Below are positions 22,708 to 23,788 of a stretch of 52,472 nucleotides of DNA, piece by piece. The notes under the pieces are model-generated. The model had not been told where the DNA came from and searched no databases. It saw only the letters and a list, made by a program, of their open reading frames with translations. Source of the stretch: Erysipelotrichaceae bacterium RD49 (lineage in GTDB: Bacteria > Bacillota_I > Bacilli_A > Erysipelotrichales > Erysipelotrichaceae); NCBI GenBank assembly GCA_015233825.1, contig JADGIS010000002.1:1-52472 (forward strand), given 5' to 3'. The position numbers and the translations under genes are program-made. The first letter of the stretch is position 1. Every line of letters starts with the position of its first letter.

Positions 22708-23788
22708 ATGAATTACAATTTTCACCAGCATACCTTCCGCTGTAAGCATGCCGAACTTTGTTCGGATGAGGAATTTGTCAAAGCCTATTTAGTATTTGCT
22801 GATCAAATCATTTCGGCTTTATCTATCGTTGAAATCAGGATATTTGAAGTGATAAAGTGCAAGGGAAAAACCGGTTTTTGCCGAAAAAGCTTGCACTTTC
22901 AAAGATGATGCCGACCACCTGTTATATGGTGAAAATATGAATTTTGTATTTGTTTTTTAAAATTAAAATTCTTATATTGCTTTAGGTAAAGCGTTTATTC
23001 GTTTGGCGCTTTGGCATTACTATTGCGAAATTTACTCTTTTTAAACGATCTGACGAGTTTTCGAATTGATCAGCAAATACTATTTAGACAATGGGTTTGA
23101 AACCATTGCCTTTACCGATCACACTCCGCAAAATCACGTCATTGATCCCCGCCAGACTATCCGCATGGATTCTGACCAGCTCGAAGACTATCTGACAAGC
23201 ATTCATCATCTCAAAGATCAGTACAAAGACCAGATCAAGATTCATGTTGGCCTGGAAGTTGAATACCTGCCTGAACTCATGGGCTTTTATGACCGCATCA
23301 AAGACAGGCTGGATTTGATGATTCTTGGCCAGCATTTTGTTCGTCGGCCGGATGGCGAATTGATTGTTATGGGCAGTGAGAAGCTGACAGACCAGGATGT
23401 AGACCTCTATGCTGATCTGGTCGTTCAAGCTATGGATTTGGGCCTGGTTCGAATCGTGGCTCATCCGGATTACTATATGCTCAACCGAACGACCTTTGGT
23501 CCAGCCCAGCAAAAAGCTGCCCGCAAAATCTGTGAAGCTTCTTTACGCACTGGTATTCCTTTAGAAGTCAACCTGCTGCCGCCTTTTAAGCTCAACCATG
23601 GAAAGCTCAACCAAGTCACGTATCCTTGCAAAGCTTTCTGGCAGATCGCCGGCGAATATGGGGTGCCGGCGGTATACGGGCTGGACACCCACCACCTGCC
23701 GCAGATTGATGACGTTCAAGCCTCTATCCAAACCGCCCGCGAACTGCTTGGAACAGAGAATCTGGACAGGCTTCACTTTGTCTGCTGA
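22708..23788 (+). pseudogene. hisK: PHP-domain histidinol-phosphatase, interrupted by a MITE-like insertion
   Basis: A PHP-fold phosphoesterase, probably histidinol-phosphatase of histidine biosynthesis, split by a 289-bp insertion. The 5' part (MNYNFHQHTFRCKHA ... EEFVKAYL) ends at the left target duplication. The remainder (DNGFETIAFTDHTP ...) resumes after the right duplication. Removing the insert and one TATTTA restores a single in-frame protein of about 261 residues, normal for the family. Metal-site motifs are visible: HQH near the N terminus, TDHT, GLEVEY, GQHF, AHPDYY, EVN and GLDTHH. The 3' fragment has no ribosome binding site of its own, so function is probably lost. No other his genes are in the window. 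Confidence 0.88.
22792..23080. mobile_element. MITE-like non-autonomous transposable element
   Basis: A 289-bp element bounded by perfect 15-bp terminal inverted repeats, GTATTTGCTGATCAA (22792-22806) and its complement (23066-23080). It is flanked by a 6-bp direct repeat, TATTTA, at 22786-22791 and 23081-23086. It encodes no protein. Internally it has a 10-bp hairpin (AAAGTGCAAG 22854-22863 with CTTGCACTTT 22890-22899) enclosing the palindrome AAAAACCGGTTTTT (22866-22879). It must be mobilised by a transposase elsewhere; the parent family was not identified. Its position inside a conserved gene shows a recent insertion. Confidence 0.88.

Follow-up and report, generated by a model that had tools for sequence, protein, structure and literature searches.

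A 289-bp MITE with IS5-family ends and TANNTA target duplications, probably moved in trans, interrupts a HisJ-like PHP gene in Erysipelotrichaceae bacterium RD49

In Erysipelotrichaceae bacterium RD49 a gene encoding a HisJ-like PHP protein is interrupted by a 289-bp MITE, which lies in the stretch of 52,472 nucleotides analysed here (the window). The insertion is real and recent. The element lacks a transposase gene, and its ends are those of the IS5 family (NF033578 / ISAcma17-ISMae6-ISLrh3 group). We consider it highly likely that it depends for movement on a transposase from this group, with an insertion sequence (IS) resident in the same genome as the likeliest source. The family is cleanly documented: the genome that carries it also has a plausible driver, and at two disrupted genes the empty site can be reconstructed exactly.

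The element occupies positions 22792 to 23080 of the forward strand. The consensus of its 13 full-length copies has 33% GC, its longest stop-free stretch is of 45 aa, and it contains no transposase gene. Its ends are perfect 15-bp terminal inverted repeats (TIRs; GTATTTGCTGATCAA / TTGATCAGCAAATAC, 15 of 15 bp matched), the left one at 22792-22806 on the forward strand and the right one at 23066-23080, where GTATTTGCTGATCAA is read on the reverse strand. These are adjoined by the target-site duplication TATTTA (22786-22791 on the left and 23081-23086 on the right), which was delimited by comparing the flanks of the copies and agrees with the family consensus TANNTA. Because an adjoining C and G match as well, the direct repeat of the window copy by itself could have a length of 6 to 8 bp (CTATTTAG being the 8-bp reading); comparison with the other copies sets the duplication at 6 bp. 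The earlier note had described a 289-bp non-coding element with perfect 15-bp TIRs, a TATTTA duplication and an internal palindrome, all of which are present. A length of less than 500 bp, TIRs, a target duplication, dispersed copies and ends matching those of an IS are the features by which we class the element as a MITE. The IS630/Tc1-mariner type of MITE, in which only TA is duplicated, was rejected, since the 2-bp model leaves the frame of the interrupted gene broken and the 6-bp model restores it. Folding of the complete element is far stronger than that of shuffled versions of it (z = -6.25), and a search of Rfam with the element matched no known RNA family.

The 5' part of the interrupted PHP gene (22708-22791, forward strand) comprises 28 codons, the HxH motif included, and the 3' part (23081-23788, forward strand) runs in frame for about 235 aa with no stop before the gene's own. 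Removal of the element together with one hexamer, as had been proposed from the sequence, yields a continuous reading frame of 261 aa (...EEFVKAY-LDNGFETIAF...), and the empty site would read GCCTATTTAGAC. The rejoined protein shows no gap at the join when two homologues are aligned with it. Its best matches among the PHP proteins of relatives are about 30-41% identical, and the locus is the sole match in the host genome at E <= 1e-15. The view that a MITE-like element was recently inserted into a gene, with an exact target duplication, is thus supported. The gene had been called a histidinol-phosphatase. It does encode a HisJ-like PHP protein, but the rejoined product stays below the HisJ cut-offs of TIGR01856 (76.1 vs 90.2 bits) and NF005996 (88.1 vs 133 bits), and 'HisJ-like PHP protein' is therefore the safer name. 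The HxH motif of PHP enzymes is metal-binding. Since this motif lies within the 28 codons that precede the insertion, what follows the element very probably has no activity by itself. Parted after codon 28 from its N-terminal HxH motif, the enzyme has, as far as can be judged from the sequence, very probably been lost.

A search of the host genome for further copies, as the earlier note had advised, found 13 that are full-length and another five that are cut at contig ends. All full copies share these ends, are of 289 bp, 95-100% identical and without indels, and have unrelated flanks; each departs from the consensus at 4-10 of its 289 positions, and the closest pair has 3 differences. All 26 flanking hexamers of the full copies start with TA and 25 of the 26 end with TA, so that the features of the window element are no product of chance. 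The hexamers of the two sides are identical in 8 of the 13 copies, in each case as TANNTA, and unequal in the other 5, perhaps because copies have exchanged sequence or because short reads were misjoined. In the copy on contig C267, the right hexamer TATCTA has no match on the left but equals the one to the left of the cut copy of C139. A second gene is split by a copy on contig C3 (L008, G000:C3, positions 974-1262), namely that of an SLFN-g3 (DUF2075-like) helicase, which scores 351.6 bits with Pfam. Here too, removal of the element together with one hexamer restores the frame, which then has a length of 624-639 codons. The joined sites of 10 of the 13 full copies are crossed by no ORF of at least 70 aa, so most insertions look intergenic.

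The host genome also holds a diverged subfamily of the MITE (contigs C71, C144, C81 and C286). It has nearly the same right terminal repeat as the main family, an internal hairpin of the same kind and a similar size (about 274-290 bp), with TANNTA flanks in the better-preserved copies. In contrast, its left end is GTATATGCTGATTAA or GTATATGCTGATTGA. Its copies are about 66-76% identical to the main family and partly degenerate, so this subfamily is older. The diverged copy on C286 is broken by an unrelated IS that starts with GTGAACTACTCGG.

Outside the host genome, no copy was found among 59 relatives (one genome per species), where only short AT-rich matches appeared. Searches of a plasmid collection and of a phage collection gave no copy of the MITE. 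The TIR pattern had 8 matches over the contigs of GTDB species, which is about the number estimated by chance, and none had a convincing partner end; one of the 8, in a Lachnospiraceae genome, lies near a contig end. Over viral contigs the pattern gave 9 stretches, judged to be likely chance matches. These searches covered one genome per species, in collections that exclude the window genome's own records. The family is apparently restricted to the species. It is previously undescribed, as far as searched, and belongs to a known kind, the IS5-family MITEs.

In addition to the MITE ends, the end-sequence pattern search of the host genome identified the ends of an IS at contig breaks, with left ends (GTATTTGCTGATTAA) on C82, C113 and C275 and right ends (GTATATGCTGATCAA) on C247 and C287. 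All five ends adjoin TATTTA or TAAATA. An element sharing the ends of the MITE, for which the earlier note had suggested a search, is present, though in pieces. On C113 and C275 the left end is followed by a hairpin and then by the first part of a reading frame (MYRKNLFPQLNLF...); on C82 the same left end is interrupted by another IS. Contig C247 encodes a 408-aa transposase fragment, truncated at the N-terminus, that scores above the curated IS5-family cut-off (NF033578, 299.6 vs 275 bits) and has candidate D, D and E residues at about 104, 314 and 363 of the fragment, in conserved alignment columns. An alignment with nine relatives identified the fragment on C113 as the matching transposase N-terminus, and about 46 codons between these pieces are absent from the assembly. 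The MITE and the resident IS have their terminal repeats and a similarly placed hairpin in common; their remaining sequence is unlike, and the MITE therefore did not arise from the resident IS by simple deletion. Homologues of the transposase were found, at E <= 1e-20, in only one other of 392 genomes of the phylum, and searches with it of viral contigs and of the PDB gave no match. Contigs C236 and C249 each encode an N-terminal piece of other IS5-like transposases (151 aa and 173 aa, respectively); both pieces score below the family cut-off and are probably decayed IS.

According to the earlier note, the 6-bp duplication appears not to fit a textbook IS. This is not supported, as TANNTA is seen at the resident IS5-family IS and at 9 of 12 distant relatives. 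The 12 elements surveyed lie on cyanobacterial and Bacillota plasmids and include ISAcma17, ISMae6 and ISLrh3, others being from Gloeothece, Nostoc, Enterococcus, Ruminococcus and Tetragenococcus. Their duplications, mostly adjoining GGGTTTGCTGA-type ends, are exact TANNTA in the nine, 7 bp long in two and lacking in one; the Tetragenococcus element has TATTTA repeats. Since TANNTA is common among the relatives of the group, the 6-bp duplication is no anomaly. The NF033578-type IS (ISAcma17, ISMae6, ISLrh3) resemble the MITE in their TIR pattern (GGGTTTGCTGA vs GTATTTGCTGA) and in their mostly 6-bp TANNTA duplications, and their DDE transposases are 34-45% identical to that of C247; unlike the window element, with its 289 bp and no transposase gene, they are about 1.6-1.7 kb long and encode a transposase. 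Moreover, a genome of the same genus (G003) has seven ends GTATTTGCTGAATAA, each after TANNTA, at contig breaks (C5, C68, C79, C106 and C120), which belong to a related multi-copy element. Among the papers searched, none names TANNTA as the target of an insertion sequence. A 6-bp TANNTA duplication that is common across this IS5-family group, from cyanobacteria to Bacillota, helps in the assignment of orphan MITEs so flanked, while the general picture is unchanged by the finding.

The internal palindrome of the window element (22854-22899, forward strand) forms a hairpin with a 10-bp stem (AAAGTGCAAG/CTTGCACTTT), which as RNA has a folding energy of -16.7 kcal/mol. The stem is nearly invariant among the 13 full copies, and a diverged copy preserves it through an A-T to G-C change that affects both sides. 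A similar hairpin is present in the left end of the IS resident in the genome; it too begins with GTGCAAGG, is followed by a T run and sits between the IS end and the ATG of the transposase. This suggests that the hairpin is a feature of the transposon, for instance a barrier to read-through transcription. A terminator scan found no site within its criteria, and the role of the hairpin is for this reason stated only as a suggestion. A further idea, that it is a terminator or attenuator which quiets the transposase and by which every MITE would also act as a portable switch on the transcription of nearby genes, is a rather doubtful one.

Taken together, these data suggest that the MITE probably owes its movement to an IS5-family transposase acting in trans. 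A transposase of the NF033578 group, most likely that of the resident IS, would recognise the GTATWTGCTGATYAA ends; the MITE would be inserted into TANNTA targets, where a 6-bp staggered cut would give rise to the duplication, and in the window the insertion split the HisJ-like PHP gene after codon 28. We infer from the sequences that the resident transposase may be mobilising the MITE in trans and may be active at the present day. The MITE could instead be driven by another transposase, such as that of one of two high-copy IS ('A' and 'B') or of an autonomous parent since lost. The resident IS is indeed low-copy and fragmented and has only the ends and the hairpin in common with the MITE, and the two unrelated IS are found at many contig ends in the host genome. 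However, the ends of IS A (starting near GGGTCTCTGAAAA) and of IS B are unlike those of the MITE, for which reason both were rejected as drivers, and each of them was found inserted within a member of the MITE family. The resident IS, in turn, matches the MITE in its ends and in its TANNTA flanks, and so do the distant relatives. A driver other than the resident NF033578-type transposase appears rather unlikely, though a more similar autonomous parent of the same group may have been lost.

Two further readings are to be weighed. One might suspect that a repeat was placed in the PHP gene by an assembly error, as the genome was assembled from short reads into a draft of 308 contigs, one adapter remnant included, and the 5 of 13 copies with unequal hexamers are what misjoins would be expected to give. 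Nevertheless both flanks of the window element come from one gene, are in frame on rejoining and show the duplication exactly. No chimeric join would give these features, and an artefact is very improbable. A repeat of the host that selection keeps for a regulatory function, as a mobile terminator or a barrier to transcription, would fit the near-invariant stem, its paired change in the diverged copy and the 10 of 13 full copies that have no ORF of at least 70 aa across the joined site. Against it are the empty terminator scan, the genes broken by at least two copies and the similar hairpin of the resident IS, which suggests that the structure belongs to the transposon; we regard such a role as unlikely.

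Similar elements are known from other bacteria. The Correia element and the MITE of Microcystis (PMC10969869, PMC11448079) are likewise short, AT-rich, non-coding and multicopy, with TIRs, target duplications and the ends of a resident IS, and they sometimes split genes, but their sequences differ from that of the window MITE. The Microcystis element is of 187 bp, with ISL3-type ends and 8-bp repeats, whereas the window MITE has IS5-family ends and the 6-bp TANNTA duplication (PMC10969869, PMC11448079).

The two unrelated IS mentioned above, starting near GGGTCTCTGAAAA and with GTGAACTACTCGG, are found for example at the ends of contigs C82, C91 and C282, and of C84, C118 and C251, and are probably the reason why the assembly is in large part so fragmented. 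In addition, contig C80 starts with an untrimmed Nextera-type adapter (AGATGTGTATAAGAGACAG) at positions 1-38.
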